Shown here in pieces: positions 4,637 through 58,358 of a DNA stretch of 64,000 nucleotides; position 1 is the first letter of the stretch, and every line of letters starts with the position of its first letter. The notes under the pieces are model-generated. The model had not been told where the DNA came from, did no database searches, and saw nothing but the letters and a program-made list of their open reading frames with translations. The stretch spans positions 1 through 64,000 of the forward strand of contig JACGCK010000062.1 of the NCBI GenBank assembly GCA_014925825.1, read 5' to 3'. The position numbers were made by a program, and so were the translations under genes. The DNA comes from Pholiota molesta (lineage: Eukaryota > Basidiomycota > Agaricomycetes > Agaricales > Strophariaceae).

Positions 4637-6408
4637 GATGTCGCGGCGTGAGGTTGGGTGGACTGTTGAGTTGTCAGGCGGTTTAGAAGGGTCAAGGAAT
4701 GACTGGATACATCCTGGATACATCTATATGTCTGAGTGATATCGTGTTTTCTTCCATAGTCCTATTGACTAATTATCAGGCATGATGGATCTAATTCTCT
4801 TGGTATACTTGATTATGAATTATGCTCCCTCCTGTCATTATTTAAGTACTCAACTATAGGTGAGTAAGATCTCGTTGCTAGACCTGCCAAGTAGGTTGGA
4901 TGTTAACTCGTTGCATTCAGATTTATCTGCGTGCCCAGTCTTTCAATTTATGTTACACAGAAGGATTCCTACAAAATTCTACAATGTCTTTTGCTCTTCA
5001 TTTTCACGCTCATGAGGAGATTCACGTGGTAGCGCTGATCAGCGATTTCGCGATGTTCGATGGAAGAAAACAACAGCATCCAAGAATGGTGTTGCGATTG
5101 TTCCAGGCACTTCGAAAATCCTCCGATTGATGCTCGCTGTATTTGTATTTCGTATCAATGTTTTTTAAATTTGTAGCTGACGGTTTCAAATTAGGATCGT
5201 TTACCCATCCACAGGAGAGCGCTTACTACATTGATCTTTCTTCAACATTTCGCTATCAGCAGCATCTGTTTTACCCTCGTCAAGGATCACTTGAGGGATT
5301 TCTTCATCGACGAATGGGATTTCTAAGGTGTTTGGGATAATCTTACCCTCGGTACGCCACGTTACCTTTTATTTTGGAGTGTACATACTTTTTATCTTCT
5401 CATATTAACTTGGGACCCGTGCTAATAGCAAATTCTGCAGAGAGCGAACATTCCCAAATCTATCGCTTTCGCTACATCGACTTGAACCAGTGAGTTTCTC
5501 GATGACTGGGGACTGCCTGCAGCAAGTCACCCGTCTGGATCGAACTGCGATATCTCCAAGTCTTTCGGATCTCAGAGTTTAGTGATAGTTCTGACCCTCT
5601 GTGGCAAATGGTGCACATCTCTATCTATCTCTATGCTGCAACTCTACCTGCCTTACTCAGTATCTAAGCTCCTTTTAGGGCAGGAGATCCCGCTATTTAT
5701 AGCACTCAATTTAACGCTCAAGGTGTCCTACAGACAAATGCGTGCGTTTATTTCCTTCCTGGATCTTATCTCGATTGTCAGGTTATGTTAATCACATATC
5801 TTTAAAGTATCACGGCAATGTCATAGGATCTGGGGATAGATACAACGAAACATACTCCGAGATTGAGACGTACATCCGGGCATATTTCAATGCCGACTCA
5901 AATGCGGTGTTATCGTACTGACATTGTCCACGACTGGCGCTTCTGCTGTGCAGACAGAATAGAACAGAATGCGGTTAACACGACTCCGGCGGGATCAAGA
6001 GCTCGATGCATAGGCCTCTTCTTGGACGGCCGCCATGCTTCTGACGTGACGGAGCCTTGATAATGTGGGTGTTTTGATCTTCGTGCGGTAGGTTTCCGGT
6101 ATATTCATAAATATTTGTTCTCACCTCGCAATCCTAGAAGTCGAGTGATCAGACATGGGCAATGATGAGCTTATGAACCGGTTCCTGGACAATCTCAAAG
6201 AGGAAGAGAAGACCAGCAGCAATGACAGTTAACGGGATAAAGATTTGGTTATAAATATCATACTCTTCAACGATATTTTATGGCCCTGACAGGTGGGAGA
6301 TTCGATATAAAAGCGCCTCTCGAGCTCGCCCTTACAATCCTCAGAGTCGCTCCCGATACTCCTCTACCACTCCAAAGCCACCTTACAGAGTACCACTAGT
6401 TGCCCATC
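4637..6408. pseudogene. Gene-poor stretch with decayed plus-strand coding fragments
   Basis: No intact gene can be built. Protein-like fragments occur in different frames: about 4984-5130 (MSFALHFHAHEEIHVVALIS), about 5221-5335 (ends LVKDHLRDFFIDEWDF then stop), about 5441-5580 (after a good acceptor; LSLSLHRLEPVSFSMTGDCL), about 5840-5920 (NETYSEIETYIRAYFNADSN) and a 25-codon frame at 6155-6232. Introns with good borders lie between some (gtacgc at 5351 to ag at 5440), but stops and frame changes remain. I read it as a relic of one multi-exon gene of unknown family. A gene broken by sequence errors is possible. Confidence 0.4.
6306..6312 (+). promoter_or_regulatory. TATA box of the Asn/Ser/Gly/Tyr-rich gene
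   Basis: TATAAAA lies 97 bp upstream of the ATG at 6409, followed by a pyrimidine-rich leader. Position and sequence fit a TATA-driven fungal promoter. Confidence 0.55.
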
Positions 6409-50978: not shown

Positions 50979-50984
50979 AACGGT
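50979..50984. repeat. Target-site duplication AACGGT, left copy
   Basis: Directly abuts the left inverted repeat; identical to 58353-58358 after the right repeat. Confidence 0.7.
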
Positions 50985-51272
50985 ACGGTCGCCGACGAGT
51001 CTCAGCTTCGTTTCCAACTGCATTTGATCAATCGGTCGCCGACGAGTCTCAGCTTCGTTTCCAACTGCTTTTGATCAATGATGCATGATAAGTGACAGAG
51101 CCCACCGCGGTTCCCCGTCCCCCCTAAGTTCCTGACCTATAACATCTTAACATTTTCACAAAGAATGCTTAGTTGTTGAGGTCTTTTGTTAGCACTGCCG
51201 GCTGGGGTAATCGATGTCACCTAGATAGACACTCGTAGATAGCGCATCAAGCGCTCACAACTCTGTAGACTT
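50985..51272 (+). repeat. Left terminal inverted repeat with a 47-bp internal duplication
   Basis: The first 47-48 bp (50985-51032) are repeated immediately (51033-51079), differing at one base (ctgcA versus ctgcT). The second copy leads into gatcaatgat and agtgacagagccc, matching the right end. Degenerate similarity to the right end continues to about 51272. Confidence 0.8.
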
Positions 51273-51537
51273 GAATACTGGATAACTATTACACAAAGCA
51301 ATGTACAAGATGGCCGTTTCCATCCATTGAAAGCTGATATGATTGTGTTGTCATTAGCGAGAAGTATCTCCGAAGGGCTTTTCCCGGGCATTCTGTAGAG
51401 TTCTGCATATATTGGAAATTACTGATAGGCTATGTTTTTTCTGCTGCATTCTGGCTCATTCTATGACACGATGCACTGTGAAACTGGTATATAATCTCAA
51501 TATCATACGTATGAAAGGTGTTCTCATTGCGCGTTCC

Positions 51538-53126
51538 ATGCCGAATCCCAAAGGAAAGAATCAGTATGCCAATTGCCGTGAGTCCATCTTGTCTTGCCCG
51601 TAGTAGGATAATAAACTCACTGTATTATTTGGAATAGCTGATGCTGACGATGAGGCCGTAGCAAAGGCACTCGTCGAATACCATAGGCAAGGGGTTGTAA
51701 AGGTGCCTGAGATCTTAGGACTCTTGAAAGCGGAACTAGGCGTCGACATGAGGTATGCAGAAAGTTTGAGCATCAAGTTCAGGTTCCTTCCTCACTTACA
51801 CAACTTTGCGCTTCCAGCCGCAGCACATTGTTCCGACGAAAGAGCCAATTGGGACTACAAGGTGCCAGTGCCACTACCCGCGACCTCCCAGAGACAATCA
51901 AGCGCCAACTCGTTCTCGATGAACTGCGCGAAGATCCCTTGAATCGCATGGGTCCGCGCATGCTCCGAGAGGCCATCCTTCATCGTACAGGCGTCCACTT
52001 GACGAGGTGAGTACGAACATGATGTATACATTATTTATTGTTCGCTGATTTACCTGATCATAGGGATTATGTTAGTGACGAAATGCGACTCCACGAGCCG
52101 GACGGATTTGTCCATCGCGCACCAACAGCAAAGATCCTAAAGCGCGTACCATTGGAAGCTGACGGACCTAACCACGAATGGAGTGCAGATGGGCATGACA
52201 AGCTGTCGTCGATTGGATTCCCTATCTGGGGGGTGAGGGATAAGTGGGCGAGCCTATGGTTACTCTTGAAGACAGTCCCAAACAACCGACTGAAGATGGC
52301 CATTGCATATCTTTATCTACAGCTCGTGTATGAAATTGGAGGTGAGTTCGTTCATACTTTGTCAAAATTACAGTGTAATTAAAATCTTGACCAGGAATGC
52401 CTATTCAAAGTACTACAGATTGTGGCTCTGAAACAACACGCATGTTCGCTTTGGCGGATGCGTTAAGGTAAGCTTTTTCTATAGCTTTCAATGACACCAT
52501 CTAAATAGTAATTAATACCTTGGTCTTTGGCTCAACAGAGCTGCATTCTCAGACTTACCCACTGATGGAGATCGACCTGCACATCGTTTCTTGCGTAGCG
52601 TCCATAACATCACCATTGAACGGGGCTGGTACCGGCTGCGCGTTTCGTGGGGAGATAACATCAAGGTCACTTATCAAAGTGGCGCGCACCTCTATAACCC
52701 GCTGAATCCAATTCAATAGTGAGTACATTGATTTTTTCATTGCAGCATAGATTAATTATAAGTATTCTCAGCGACCTGCATCAATGGCTCTGGCCAAAGT
52801 TTGTTCAACAAGAGCTGGACAGCTTCCGCGATCGTATGAATAACCATGCTGTACGTTCCGACAGGCACAAGCACCTTCCTTCCGGTGTTTCTCCAAGAGT
52901 CGCATATGCACTTTATAGTAATTATGACGGTCGGCAATGCCTTATTCCTGTTGATCGTGAAGTTGTTAAAGCAATGATGGACGAAATCGGCGAAGACGTG
53001 ATTCGGTTTGTCTCTCGTGAGTACGAAGCGCGAGCAGAAGCGGCTTTTTCGACACTGGGGGTCTCAAAACTAACGAAGGCAAATATCTGGCAAATTTTTG
53101 TTGATATGATACCACTTATGTCTTAA
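51538..53126 (+). CDS. DDE integrase/transposase of the inverted-repeat element
   Basis: Seven exons (51538-51577, 51638-51752, 51818-52006, 52064-52341, 52395-52467, 52539-52718, 52772-53126) total 1230 nt, 409 residues with no internal stop. The N-terminal helical region contains RRKSQLGLQGAS. The catalytic core follows: first Asp in EWSADGHDKLSSIGFPIWG, second Asp in TTDCGSETTRM, Glu in VHNITIERGW, with 42 residues between the second Asp and the Glu. A C-terminal helical domain begins at DLHQWLWPKFVQQELDSFRD. This is the fungal integrase-core family found in many basidiomycete genomes. All catalytic residues are present, so it may be active. It probably cuts and joins the ends of the surrounding element. 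Confidence 0.88.
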
Positions 53127-53330
53127 CACTTGTAATATACATTTGGTGATATCTATGATTGTGTTTTACGGCGCTATCTTGTACTCCATCTTTATTGATA
53201 AGTAACTTTTGAATAATGTGATGCGAGACGGAATAGGGTCCAGTGTGTAGGTTATGCGAAAAAAAGGCATGCAGACACCAGAAAGCAAAGGAAATAAGTA
53301 TGATGGATGAAGGATGATGACCGAACGTCT
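53127..53330. other. 3' flank of the integrase gene
   Basis: AT-rich; likely contains its terminator. No gene seen. Confidence 0.4.
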
Positions 53331-53379
53331 AGACGCCGTTCCAACCGTATCCTGTATGTTGGCAAGCTCATTGGTGGCT

Positions 53380-54440
53380 CTTGCTCGCGGCGGCTTGACA
53401 GGACGGTGACGGCGGGCGGCTGCGAGCCCTCGACGGCGGTGGATGCATCAAGTTTGAGGAGACGGTGGCCATGACCAAGCTCGATGGGCCAAGATGGCGG
53501 CTCTTGCTCGCGGCGGCTTGGCATGTGTGGGAGGCGCCGGCGTCCGAGGGCGATAAGAGCCGGCAGGTGTTGAGGAGAGCGGGGATGGGTGGGCGCAGGC
53601 GTCCGCGGGTGGTAAGCGGCGAGTTCGTGCCCGTTGCAGTCCTCTCGCCTGCATCCTTGCTCGTCTGCGCCCGCCGCCTTCGGCCTTTGATCGCCAACCA
53701 CACCCAATCGCCGTCGTCCTTCGCAGCAACAGCGACATCCGTCGTGCCTAGCCACCCCCCGTGGCGATCCGTGCGTGATCCGTGCGCGAGCGGGCGTGGA
53801 TCCCAATGGATACGCGCCGCTGCCCCGCTGACGAGATCTCCAGGAAGAACGACCTGCACGAGAATCGGGGCAGACGCCGAGGCGAGCCCACGTCTGACCT
53901 CCGGCTGACGGGCTCCGTTGCTAGCGCGCACAATCGATGTCGAAAATTGTCGTCGTGGGCGGGGTTTGTGCGATGCCGCCGTGTCGGCGCGAGGTGCGAG
54001 GTTGTGGGAAATGAGGTCGTCGTCGTGGGTGGTGGTAAGCGGCAAGAGGCCGTTCGTGCCGCATGACGGATGAACGCGCAGCTACATGAGGTAGTCGGAG
54101 GTGTATGGCCGGTACGCGTTGTACATGGGTGCGCTTGTTGGTGTGTACTCCGTAGTGTCGCCGAAAACTCCCAAGGAGCTCAGATGGAGTAGTAGTGTTG
54201 CGGAACGAGTCAAAGTCCTCGTTGAACTCGGACATCTGACAGGACGGTGGTGGCTGCGAGCCCTCGGTGGCAGCGGGTCCGTCAAGTTCGGCGGTGACGG
54301 CGGCCATGAGCAAGCTCGATGGGCCACGATGGCAGAACGGTGACGGCGGGCGGCTGTGAGCCCTCAACAGCGGCTTCGATGGCCCAACGGCGGCGGCGGC
54401 TCCAAGCAAGTGACCAACGCCCTCCTAGCAGCTGGGCTCT
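53380..54440. repeat. GC-rich imperfect repeat block inside the element
   Basis: A block far more GC-rich than its surroundings. A unit of about 100 bp (gacaggacggtgacggcggg ... gccctcgacggcggt ... caagctcgatgggcc) occurs at about 53394-53493, again at 54237-54331 and partly at 54330-54390. The phrase gcggctcttgctcgcggcgg also recurs within 53373-53517. Long open frames on both strands result from base composition; none has splice or family support. Confidence 0.65.
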
Positions 54441-55310
54441 TCGTTTAGAAGCCCAGCACAGCACAAGTCTCGATTGAACTTGTGCTGCTTGCCCAAGGGC
54501 GCCATGTTGCGACTTGCGGTGGGCTGCCGTGTGTGTTCAAGAGGGCAAGTGCTTAGCGCTTAGCGCTTGCTGCCAGCGTCACATCCATCACGTGTGACGG
54601 TGTGATATGTCACCTACCTCTTCAAACTATAACCCATCCTGTGGCCCGAGGGATGTACGGCTAAGGTTCAAATGGCGCATATATATATTTATATTGCTTA
54701 TATCTATCTAATTCTAGACTTTGGCATTCTTCTGACCAGAATTGGTGGCAGCAGAGCACCATAGTTATTTGCTCTGCATGCCTTAGGTCGTACACAAATA
54801 AGAGTCAACAATAGATACTCCGAGTGTGAGTTCGATATCTTCGCTCAACTCTTGCTTTGCTCTCGCTTGTTTCTCGCAGTATTCATTACACTGTATGGCC
54901 CTAATAGATACTTCTAACGCATTTGAATTGTCCCAAGTAATATAAACAGCTAAACACCGGTATTTAAGTCTGCAGGCACCCTCAATGAGCAGTGAGCACC
55001 TTTTGTCCGATGACTGAAGGATATCAAACGAAGACGGGGCATAGTTCAGATATTTCCAAATAAAAATAAAATATATATATTGAAGTGAATTGGAACATAG
55101 CTACATTTGCGCTATGCGGATAAGGAAATTTAGAGGTTGGTTGATTAAAAAATAACTTAAACATGGTATCTGGAGAAAAGAACTCAAAAGGAAGGACGAA
55201 TATTCAACTTGATGGGCATAAATAAAGGAGTGAGTTTTATAAAGGAGTGACAGGTATTTAATTGAAATGAAATTAAGGAGACGATTGTACTCAAAATTTA
55301 AACGGCACCT
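54441..55310. other. Spacer downstream of the alpha-kinase gene
   Basis: No gene seen. From 54590 to about 54740 a segment beginning tgtgacggtgtgatatgtca and ending tctgacca, followed by tggtggcagcagagcacc, resembles a solo LTR end with a primer-binding-like site. Weak. Confidence 0.35.
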
Positions 55311-57800
55311 TCAGAACCCAATTCGGAGAGGGTGGTTCTTTGTTTTAGCATGCCCTGAATTGTGATCCAAGTCTTTCTTCGCACTGGGATCGAAATCAGA
55401 CTCAGTATCGGAATTAGAGTCGAAGTTCAAGGATTTCAGATCCCCGAGCTCGAGAATTTCACAATAGAAATTGCATTCATGTCGAGACATGAAGGCTTCG
55501 ATTTGTTTGCGACCCCCGTCCCAGTGTCCGGATGACTTGTCCCTGTGATTAAAGATATGCTAAGAATTCAATTTAGTGGGATTCAACAGATGCACGTACT
55601 TTGTATGAGCCTGCGGATCAAATAACACAACTTCTCTGCGATGCATGATTCTTCCTGGGAACACAAGACCTAAGAACGAAATGTGAGGCACATAGAGACT
55701 GGAGTCAAATAGACGAAGCAGTCCACACCTTGAATATCACTGAATAGCACCTCACCATGACTATGAATCAGAGTAGCGTGTAGAAACGCATTGACAACTG
55801 CTCCAACGCCATCTTTATGGTTGCAGATCTCTTTGTTTCCGCAGAATTTCACTTCCTTGTTGAGTGCGTTGTCGATCGGCAGAAGAGGCGTGGCGAGGAA
55901 ATGAGAGAAGAAAAGGTTTGCATCTTCATCTGCATCTTGGCCATACTTCTTTAATGGCTTGACAAGCTCGCCAACGAAGGCCTCATTGACGTTCCAATTC
56001 ATATCTAGATAAAATTAGAGTGAATTAGCCATTTCTTTATTAGAGAACATTGACTTACCTGGGAATTGGAGTGGCACTCCGTACTCATAGATACGTTCAT
56101 AGAAAATATCCATGAAGTATTGTCCAAGAACAAGTAGCTTCAATTCCTTTAAAAGGTCGTTCTGATTTGAAATCTCAACTGCGAATTGAGGCCTACACTG
56201 GAATAAAGCATAGTCTGTGTCGTTGATACGGCCCTAGGATGCAGAAAAAAAATTAACAGACAGCTGGCACAAATTGGCAAATCGGACTTACACGAAAGGC
56301 ATATTTTCCAAAGCCCTTTGAGAGGTAACCTCCAGCTGGTTTGCCGCCCTTTATGAACTTTTGCCAACCATCGACAACTTCAATGGCTTCAATGGCGGTG
56401 CGCTTCTTGAGCGTAGTGACTCCGGTATTGTCAATGTGGTATTCAGTCCGACGAAATTCAAATGTTTCGTATTTGAACTCGAGAGATTCATCCGTCACTG
56501 TCTTCATGGAGCGGAATGCGCTCTGAAATTGCGGCACTGCCGAGCGGGTAGGCTGACTCGATGCACCAAGCATTTCTGAACTTTGGAATTAGCATCCATA
56601 TAAATTTGATTTAACTTGTAGTATGAACTTACCCTGCTGAGGCTGAGATCCACGTCTACGCTTTGAAAGTGGTGGAGTTGTGGGCGCAGATTTTGCCCGA
56701 CGCTTCGAAGTGCCTTTAAGTGAAGCACCTTTGAAAATATCGGGAGACGAGTCAGAATTGTCGGCGTCGTCATCCTAAGATTTCACAAGATAAATTATTT
56801 AAGTACACCATGGTGAATCAAGTTGTATGTACACACCTTCTCAAAGACAGTGATACGGAGGGTCACCTTCGCTTCCTTCTCAGCCTTGCCAGTAAGAAGG
56901 TCAAGCTCTTTGAGCTGGCCAAAGAGCTCCTCAATAGTATGGTCTGCAAGCTCGAAGTCATCGATGCTATGGTGTGAGCTGCTTCCTTGCACAATACTAA
57001 AGTGACCTCTAAACCATGCCAGAGAATCAGTTAAAGATGTGAACCAAATTATAAAAAGAAACTTACCGATTGAAAATCAATTGAGGCTTTGTAATGCCGT
57101 TCGGTATCATCGAGTACTTCCTCTGCGCATTACAGAGAAGACTTTGTAATGCCGATCCAGCGTTCTCGGTATACTTGAACTTGTCGCAGAATGGATCCAT
57201 CTGAACCTGTAGGAAACAATGAATCATAAGCATTGTAACAAGCTGTAAATGAGACATAACATACTCGCTTTGATTTCCCCCCAGTGCGTGGCCAGTACCA
57301 AAGGCCGGCGTCGAGTTTGACAAAACCTGGCTTGGCAGAACGTCGCAAGGAATCCATCCTGTCTTTCTCGGCTTGGAGTGCAAGCGGCTTCTTCTGGTGG
57401 AGGCGACTGTTGCTAGCCTCTTTCTCCTTCGCATCGGCAGCATGCCCAATGCTCAATGCTAGGGTTTGAGGATTTTGAACGACGCGAGGATCTGGAATAG
57501 AATGTTGAATCAGTTACATGGTATTAAATGTGAAGTCAACTACTTGCCTTTCCTACAAGCTCCGCAGAATTGTTCATCGAGGAACTGGTAGATGGCCCCA
57601 CATCCTTGACAATTCTTTTCAGACTGGGGGTATAAAATGTTAGAGTAAGCTTTTTGTGAGGCTAAGTCAAGCAAACTGGAACGTACATTGATTCTCAGCC
57701 ATTCGGACGCCGGACTCTTGGATTTCTTGAAGCACTTCGCACATGGAACTGAAGGCGACAGAGCTGGAAAATCGATGGAGCAACCAGAGCATTGGACCAT
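55311..57800 (-). CDS. Alpha-type protein kinase with two N-terminal zinc ribbons
   Basis: Eleven exons (57800-57687, 57623-57548, 57491-57265, 57206-57067, 57008-56837, 56774-56633, 56575-56292, 56233-56059, 56004-55729, 55669-55600, 55542-55311) total 1908 nt, 635 residues. Two CxxC...CxxC ribbons come first (CSGC...CAKC and CQGC...CGAC), then a basic helix, a disordered linker with SKRRR, and the alpha-kinase domain from about residue 310: KGFGKYAFR, LKKYGQDADEDANLFFSHFL, HSHGEVLFSDIQG, VVLFDPQAHT, HWDGG and the terminal zinc-binding HECNFYC. Alpha-kinases (myosin heavy-chain/eEF2 kinase type) phosphorylate Ser/Thr, often in helices. Intron 2 is GC-AG. Being intact and inside the mobile element makes it cargo or an active partner. 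Confidence 0.88.
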
Positions 57801-58108
57801 AGTAGCAACGATGAATTTAGACTCGAAGTAGGAAGTTCAGGGAGTGGATTTTTGTTTTGGGTGCTATGTCTAATGTCTTGCCACCAACAATTTATATGCT
57901 AGCTCTCAGAAATTCATGGAAATTCATCGAAAAAACAAACAGAAACCATTTGAGAGACGATTCAATTTCCAATTTATTCAGAACACTACAGAACACTCGG
58001 GAAATACTCTTCGGAGATACAGATATTATACTCGCTAACCAGCAAACTTGCAACAATATACTGCCTTCATGATATTGGATTTCAAACATTCTTCTGCAAA
58101 GCCATTCT
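57801..58108. other. Upstream region of the alpha-kinase gene
   Basis: AT-rich, no gene. Holds the kinase promoter between the ATG and the right inverted repeat. Confidence 0.45.
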
Positions 58109-58352
58109 ACGTGTAACTCTACGAAATTACAAGCGCTTGTCGCAAATTCCGAGCGTCTATTTTGTTGACGTTGAGTCGTTGACTGGCTTAGCCGGCAGCG
58201 TGAATGAAAGACCTAGACAAATGAACATTCTCACAGATATGTTGCGTGTGTCGCACAGACTAAAATTAGCACGGCTAGTGTCAAGTGGGGCTCTGTCATT
58301 TATCATTGATCAAAAGCAGTTGGAAACGAAGCTGAGACTCGTCGGCGACCGT
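58109..58352 (-). repeat. Right terminal inverted repeat
   Basis: The reverse complement starts ACGGTCGCCGACGAGTCTCA at 58352 and continues through gatcaatgat and tgacagagcccc, then degenerate similarity to about 58109. Unlike the left end it has no 47-bp duplication. Confidence 0.8.
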
Positions 58353-58358
58353 AACGGT
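58353..58358. repeat. Target-site duplication AACGGT, right copy
   Basis: Identical to 50979-50984. Confidence 0.7.

Follow-up and report, generated by a model that had tools for sequence, protein, structure and literature searches.

It is unusual for a transposon to carry a protein kinase. In the fungal TET+ IS3EU transposons, a transposase gene and an alpha-kinase gene lie in opposite orientations (Kojima 2025, PMC12730594). The sections of that account available to us give rust fungi and Tuber as the hosts and describe, for the rust families, 6-bp target-site duplications (TSDs), TAYGG..CCRTA ends and inverted repeats of more than 30 bp. There, a TET/JBP gene between transposase and kinase is the mark of the TET+ subset and not of IS3EU itself, and these sections propose no function for the kinase in the transposon. 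For IS3EU and GingerRoot elements, the accessible part of another description (PMC10045372) reports TA..TA ends, duplications usually of 6 bp and a DDE integrase-like enzyme; its main text does not contain the word "kinase". The alpha-kinase family has been called "highly expanded" in rusts (PMC4469406, seen in excerpt).

Here we describe a unit of 7.37 kb (about 50985-58352) in a 64,000-nucleotide stretch of the Pholiota molesta genome (the window), which has matching ends, AACGGT flanks and an integrase and an alpha-kinase inside. The original prediction had presented this pairing as undescribed. That claim fails, as an IS3EU with a transposase and an oppositely oriented alpha-kinase is published in the sections of PMC12730594 cited above, and the pairing of the two genes is already known for this superfamily. 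Possibly new are the three gene arrangements, the duplications of 4-6 bp and the absence of the ATP-site lysine from one kinase clade.

Results and discussion

Termini and flanking duplication

Exact copies of the terminal sequence ACGGTCGCCGACGAG lie at 50985-50999 (+) and 58338-58352 (-). When as many as three mismatches were allowed, it matched five times in the window, a number reached by 0 of 100 dinucleotide shuffles. At the left end, a 47-bp unit is repeated in tandem (50986-51032 and 51033-51079, 98% alike); the right end matches the outer copy over 57 nt (93%) and the inner copy over 56 nt (96%). The inverted repeats are thus longer than 30 bp, and patchy pairing extends out to about 430 bp, with 51162-51203 against 58190-58231 at 76% and 51364-51420 against 57964-58020 at 84%. 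All features are collected in Table 1.

Table 1 Features of the Pholiota molesta element (window coordinates; gene models are predictions)
Feature	Position	Strand	Remarks
Left target-site duplication AACGGT	50979..50984	.	ACGG at 50980-50983 when the terminal T is counted as part of the element
Left terminal inverted repeat, outer part	50985..51103	+	contains the tandem 47-bp unit (x2)
Left inverted repeat, inner diverged part	51162..51420	+	patchy pairing with 57964-58231
DDE integrase/transposase gene	51511..53126	+	7 exons, 418 aa, Pfam PF24764
Inter-gene interval	53362..54531	.	mostly G+C-rich; its fragments have matches at many other genomic sites
Segment	54619..54777	.	77-78% identical to a stretch found in each of the two long inverted repeats of sister element C300
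Alpha-kinase gene	55311..57800	-	11 exons (57800-55311), 635 aa, Pfam PF02816
Right inverted repeat, inner diverged part	57964..58231	-	
Right terminal inverted repeat, outer part	58288..58352	-	
Right target-site duplication AACGGT	58353..58358	.	or ACGG at 58354-58357

The perfect 6-bp AACGGT duplication that had been predicted is indeed present at both flanks, and its length depends on where the boundary is drawn. Since every sister element for which both ends are tabulated (7/7) starts with TACGGT and ends with ACCGTA, 50984-58353 is an equally good reading of the window element. The duplication is 6 bp (AACGGT) with AC..GT ends and 4 bp (ACGG) with TA..TA ends. A DDE enzyme fits the short flanking duplication, as had been proposed.

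Coding capacity

Both gene models were predicted from splice signals alone. A simple exon predictor returned an identical integrase model and, apart from four residues missing at one acceptor, the same kinase model; this agreement is not independent support because the predictor's codon table was trained on the same two genes. The integrase matched PF24764 with an E value of 4.2e-10, and its D166, D225 and E268 were conserved in 104/109, 103/109 and 102/109 aligned proteins, respectively. Together with the PF02816 assignment of the second gene, these predicted models bear out the intact D-D-E integrase and 11-exon alpha-kinase seen originally.

The kinase model includes one GC-AG intron. Four CxxC pairs lie near the predicted N terminus, and SDIQG at 532 and HECNFYC from 580 represent the DxQG and HxCNxxC motifs. 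The C-terminal part aligns with myosin heavy chain kinase A, the TRP-related protein 1ia9 and eEF2 kinase, which share these two motifs. Unlike these solved alpha-kinases, the window clade lacks the beta3 lysine and has the N-terminal CxxC pairs in addition. The beta3 lysine is the usual ATP-contact residue of an active alpha-kinase. Its place in the window kinase is taken by Gln397 (YALFQ), where the kinases of the sister elements C600a, C389 and C28 read AGKR or VAKR. When the C600a and C28 kinases were combined into a profile, this lysine aligned with LKRF of 4kuj, a short stretch that on its own is not significant. Homologue searches gave at least one match for the whole protein (7988 candidates with the most shared words scored) and at least two for the kinase region (2234 scored); these low numbers reflect the limits of the search and are no count of relatives. 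An AlphaFold model of the kinase built from 4 sequences had a mean pLDDT of 46.3 and was set aside.

Between the two genes, six open reading frames of at least 100 aa gave no Pfam match over the cut-off (one of them has a match of 12.6 bits where 28.1 would be needed), and a TET/JBP gene was likewise not found among them. The G+C-rich interval was considered as a third gene and rejected, as it had no Pfam match over the cut-off and its pieces recur across the genome; it looks like later nested repeat material. Genome-wide there were five Tet_JBP matches, 0 of them on contigs with an IS3EU-type integrase.

Sister elements and classification

The genome (65.6 Mb) was searched for relatives of both genes. 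Eight of the 13 alpha-kinase loci had one of the 12 related integrase loci no more than 4 kb away (binomial tail 8e-20, to be read as an order of size only since copies are not independent events). The other five kinase loci had no integrase found nearby, and four of the 12 integrase loci had no kinase match. For six of the eight pairs both enclosing ends TACGGT...ACCGTA were found, so that integrase and kinase lie between such ends in the window element, C578b, C300, C600a, C389 and C28, as the original prediction had anticipated; at C92 ends were looked for and none found. Besides the opposite orientation of the window element, same-strand and head-to-head arrangements occur, three in all. 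Ends of this kind, flanked by perfect 6-bp duplications, also bound two elements that contain the integrase only (C600b, C607). With TA..TA ends, the duplication measures 5 bp in C578b and C300 and 6 bp in C600a, C600b and C607; an exact flanking pair was absent from C389 (0) and C28 (1). Between C600a and C389, 4860 of 5004 aligned bases agree (97%; 302 gap columns, short flanks included). These two elements occupy different sites and have no flanking DNA in common past about 30 bp, and C600a is flanked by perfect GACGTG. The association also extends beyond this genome: integrase and kinase carry consecutive locus tags in Ganoderma adspersum (V8D89_002296 and V8D89_002297, respectively), and for the pair of Cerioporus squamosus the length of the longest contig, 454,473, is the same.

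These sister elements, which have the same kind of termini, corroborate a mobile element bounded by inverted ends. A chance neighbourhood, in which unrelated genes happen to sit between coincidental inverted repeats, could draw on the window element being single-copy in its own genome, but the sister elements already refute it, and the proximity tail and the precedent in the consulted part of PMC12730594 speak against it; its probability is negligible. From the ends, the duplication, both gene frames, the repeated co-occurrence and two near-identical copies at different sites, we read the window element as a putative IS3EU-type cut-and-paste DNA transposon with a DDE transposase and an alpha-kinase, with a probability of about 0.88; the assignment to IS3EU is based on ends, duplication length and gene content.

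As in the TET+ IS3EU elements of PMC12730594, as far as these are described in the sections cited, the window integrase (+) and kinase (-) are opposed; as in the rust families among them, the inverted ends exceed 30 bp and can be read as TAYGG..CCRTA, and the duplication is short. Unlike these, the window element has no TET/JBP gene and an agaricomycete host, its sisters also adopt the same-strand and head-to-head arrangements, and the duplication varies from 4 to 6 bp by copy and boundary. The pairing hence reaches beyond the TET-bearing rust and truffle families to a mushroom-type fungus, where it takes three arrangements and comes without a TET gene. TA..TA-readable ends and a DDE integrase-like enzyme are also shared with IS3EU/GingerRoot as outlined in the cited part of PMC10045372. 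Membership of another DDE superfamily (Ginger, GingerRoot or IS481EU) appears improbable, because the combination of an opposite alpha-kinase with TAYGG..CCRTA ends is reported for the fungal TET+ IS3EU in the same part of PMC12730594. By extrapolation from the described families, the transposase (51511-53126) would bind the TACGGT-ended inverted repeats and excise the element, which would then be inserted at a target site opened by cuts staggered by 4-6 bp.

Role of the alpha-kinase

In this group of transposons the alpha-kinase is a regular second gene and not a host gene captured on a single occasion. Whether it contributes to transposition is a separate matter, and we lean slightly towards a kinase that works for the transposon rather than riding along. 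We favour a role as an accessory transposition or anti-silencing factor, in which the predicted kinase would most probably modify either the transposase or a factor involved in chromatin or repair; transposition would thereby be licensed or silencing eased. A passive cargo, that is, a host gene that became trapped between IS3EU ends and hitch-hikes with no part in transposition, is a less probable reading. It would agree with the existence of integrase-only elements, with the loss of the usual ATP-site lysine from 7 of the 11 kinases compared, the window kinase included, and with a dN/dS between C600a and C389 that is greater for the kinase (0.55, 38 differences) than for the integrase (0.21, 7 differences). 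The kinase value stems from a predicted, N-terminally incomplete model, with two stop-codon pairs and two gapped codons set aside, and indicates weak selection on the kinase between these copies. Against a mere passenger, kinases accompany integrases only 29-52% identical to that of the window, the pairing persists in three arrangements as well as in TET+ IS3EU (PMC12730594, sections cited), and integrase and kinase trees agree where resolved. DxQG is kept in 8/8 and FDxxxH in 7/8 aligned kinases. Moreover, the compact integrase-only elements also lack the integrase N terminus in their predicted gene models and thus look like deletion derivatives.

Returning to a kinase that serves the transposon, we tentatively envisage it as a conserved working part of fungal IS3EU from rusts to mushrooms, which in the window clade would have become a pseudokinase or a kinase without the lysine and would control the transposase or host silencing through binding instead of ordinary phosphorylation; this fuller picture is doubtful. 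If a working, partly lysine-less IS3EU kinase were true, part of the fungal alpha-kinase expansion would be transposon-borne. We infer that transposon copies may contribute to the expansion in rusts, and the pairing bears on gene-family counts.

Copy number and insertion site

A search for further copies with the ends of the window element had been suggested. Related sisters exist, as does one relic; a second full copy was not found. In the genome DNA search, the left 526 bp matched only the element's own two ends, and as far as this search shows the element is single-copy in its own genome, the relic aside. The relic was the one further place found by a 22-base end pattern with up to three mismatches. 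It lies at C625:107971, where 33-35 bp made up of the left end and a shortened right end stand between ACAGTT copies. In the 35-bp reading it ends in TCCGTA; the duplication is 4 bp with TA..TA ends and 6 bp with AC..GT ends. We read it as an excision footprint or a deletion derivative. Further PF24764 matches on C456, C2, C23, C143, C90 and C597 form a different set; these six contigs carry none of the 13 kinase loci. With a view to an orthologous empty site, the flanks of the window element were compared with the genome: the right flank (1048 bp) matched only itself, and the left flank (1085 bp) had five other partial matches, all of which stop some 500 bp before the insertion point is reached.

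Structure and classification of the element

As predicted, a 7.37-kb unit with inverted ends was found between two copies of AACGGT on a contig (C578) that spans 263,687 bases of the 65.58-Mb genome assembly (625 contigs) and whose first 64 kb make up the window. The left end consists of a 47-bp unit present twice in tandem; pairing of the right end extends over 57 nt (93%) for the outer copy and over 56 nt (96%) for the inner one, and weaker, patchy pairing reaches inward as far as 51420 (left) and 57964 (right). Both genes assumed to be intact, integrase and alpha-kinase, indeed have open frames in the predicted gene models. Of 109 aligned proteins, 104 share the D-D-E residue D166 of the integrase, 103 share D225 and 102 share E268. 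This alignment comprised the window protein, six models from the same genome and those 102 of the best 120 homologues (239 found) whose length fell within a filter of 380–480 aa. Among these best 120 matches, the closest relative was a protein of Pholiota conissans (77% identical), and those with recognised names came from mushroom-type fungi. Between the two genes (53362-54531) lies a G+C-rich block of fragments matching many other places in the genome, with 58–66% G+C between 53500 and 54699 (measured in steps of 600 bases) compared to 37–51% around it.

Features of the element in the window
Feature	Position	Strand	Description
AACGGT copies	50979-50984 and 58353-58358		both flanks of the unit
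Integrase gene	51511-53126	+	7 exons, 418 aa, Pfam integrase core PF24764; predicted model
Alpha-kinase gene	57800-55311	-	11 exons, 635 aa, alpha-kinase domain PF02816; predicted model

Elements of such type have been classed as IS3EU (Kojima 2025, PMC12730594). In the parts of that paper covering them, every TET+ IS3EU family has a TET/JBP gene between oppositely oriented transposase and alpha-kinase genes, the rust families exhibit 6-bp duplications and TAYGG..CCRTA ends, and no statement is made on the kinase's job. For IS3EU, PMC10045372 gives TA..TA ends and duplications of usually 6 bp. The window element shares the published features, except that the TET/JBP gene is missing and the duplication length is ambiguous. 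It is therefore most probably a new element of an already published IS3EU/alpha-kinase kind, and the term "undescribed" in the original prediction has to be withdrawn. No other report of alpha-kinase-bearing transposons stood out among the papers listed in the literature searches, a scope outside which Repbase reports and most subscription journals fell.

A start TACGGT and an end ACCGTA are a possible reading in the window and in all seven tabulated sister elements. Under a TA..TA reading of the ends, the window element and a short relic on C625 have a duplication of 4 bp. For C578b and C300 it is 5 bp long, for C600a, C600b and C607 it is 6 bp, and C389 and C28 have no exact flanking pair. 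With the outer T and A counted as target, the duplication becomes 6 bp in the window (AACGGT) and the relic (ACAGTT). The proposed 6-bp duplication stands under the second reading and shrinks under the first, and the sequence fits both. By analogy with what is established for DDE enzymes, excision of the element by the transposase would be expected at the TACGGT ends, followed by insertion at a staggered cut. The relic (C625:107970), a 33–35-bp insert with ACAGTT on either side, carries a left end and a shortened right end (terminus TCCGTA) of the window-element type and reads as an excision footprint or a tiny deletion derivative. At C500, where the ends alone were read, a further pair is flanked by 5 bp (CATGG) by eye.

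Pairing of integrase and kinase

Genome searches revealed at least 12 loci with integrase relatives, the window included, and at least 13 matching the alpha-kinase Pfam model. Eight of these 13 have one of the 12 integrase loci no more than 4 kb away, against a chance expectation of 0.17% per locus (binomial tail 8e-20, for loci that are non-independent because one element is present in two copies, C600a and C389). These copies are identical at 4860 of 5004 aligned bases, a count that includes 302 gap columns and short flanks, and within the 10-kb flanking stretches compared no similarity extends beyond ~30 bp. Near identity inside unlike flanks is good evidence for a joint movement of integrase and kinase as a single unit.

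Both inverted ends were found around the two genes at six of the eight loci (window, C578b, C300, C600a, C389, C28), so that elsewhere in this genome, too, the genes co-occur between such ends, in five sister elements. C578b (C578:67047-73716) is a second, different integrase-plus-kinase element ~9 kb from that in the window. C100 begins at a contig edge and has a right end only; no ends were recognised around the pair at C92. The genes are convergent in the window, on the same strand in C578b, C100 and C300, and divergent in C600a, C389, C28 and C92. Four integrase loci gave no kinase match (C600b, C607, C21 and a fragment on C99), among them C600b and C607, two compact 2.1-kb elements whose ends are of the same type and whose 6-bp duplications are perfect. 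A 4.1-kb integrase block is 99% identical between C92:3541-7667 and C21:23166-27299; only at C92 is it accompanied by a kinase match, which lies beyond the limits of the block. No ends could be recognised. Further PF24764 matches, outside the 12 IS3EU-type loci and without an alpha-kinase match, occur on C456, C2, C23, C143, C90 and C597.

For other fungi, we compared the best 120 of 239 integrase matches with shallow kinase searches, a sample that gives no co-occurrence rate. In Ganoderma adspersum, integrase and kinase bear consecutive tags (V8D89_002296 and V8D89_002297), with a longest contig of 1,215,069 in both records; the records of a Cerioporus squamosus integrase and kinase likewise agree on a longest contig of 454,473. 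The third kinase match, from Melanogaster broomeanus, had no partner among those 120 integrase matches.

The kinase and its evolution

By sequence, the C-terminal part of the kinase aligns with myosin heavy chain kinase A, the TRP-related 1ia9 and eEF2 kinase, retaining DxQG and HxCNxxC. DxQG is present in all eight aligned kinases, FDxxxH in seven and HxCNxxC in four, where several models and one database protein end short of the motif. Lysine occupies the usual beta3 place, presumably contacting ATP, in three of 11 kinases (C600a, C389, C28), as aligned to LKRF of 4kuj, although this short stretch alone scores only 0.8 bits. Seven kinases (window, C578b, C100, C300, Melanogaster, Cerioporus, Ganoderma) lack it, showing YALFQ, YVITQ, YVLTQ, YAILQ or YALAQ instead, and C92 was unreadable. 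The lysine-less set is separate from C600a and C28 in both the integrase and the kinase tree, where long branches meet; the trees differ slightly in rows (Pholiota without a kinase row, Melanogaster without an integrase row).

We prefer to read the kinase as an accessory gene that this transposon group has retained; as a guess, its target might be the transposase or a protein acting in chromatin or in repair. That it is passive cargo seems to us rather unlikely, even though the changes between C600a and C389 lean against an accessory role: 25.5 amino-acid and 12.5 silent changes in the kinase (dN/dS 0.55; predicted model, N terminus missing) versus 3 and 4 in the integrase (dN/dS 0.21), numbers too small as proof of selection. 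Stop-codon pairs (integrase 1, kinase 2) and gapped codons (0 and 2) were set aside. Finally, the kinase parts of C578b and C100 are 93% identical and their integrase parts only 72%, suggesting that halves of elements may have been exchanged.
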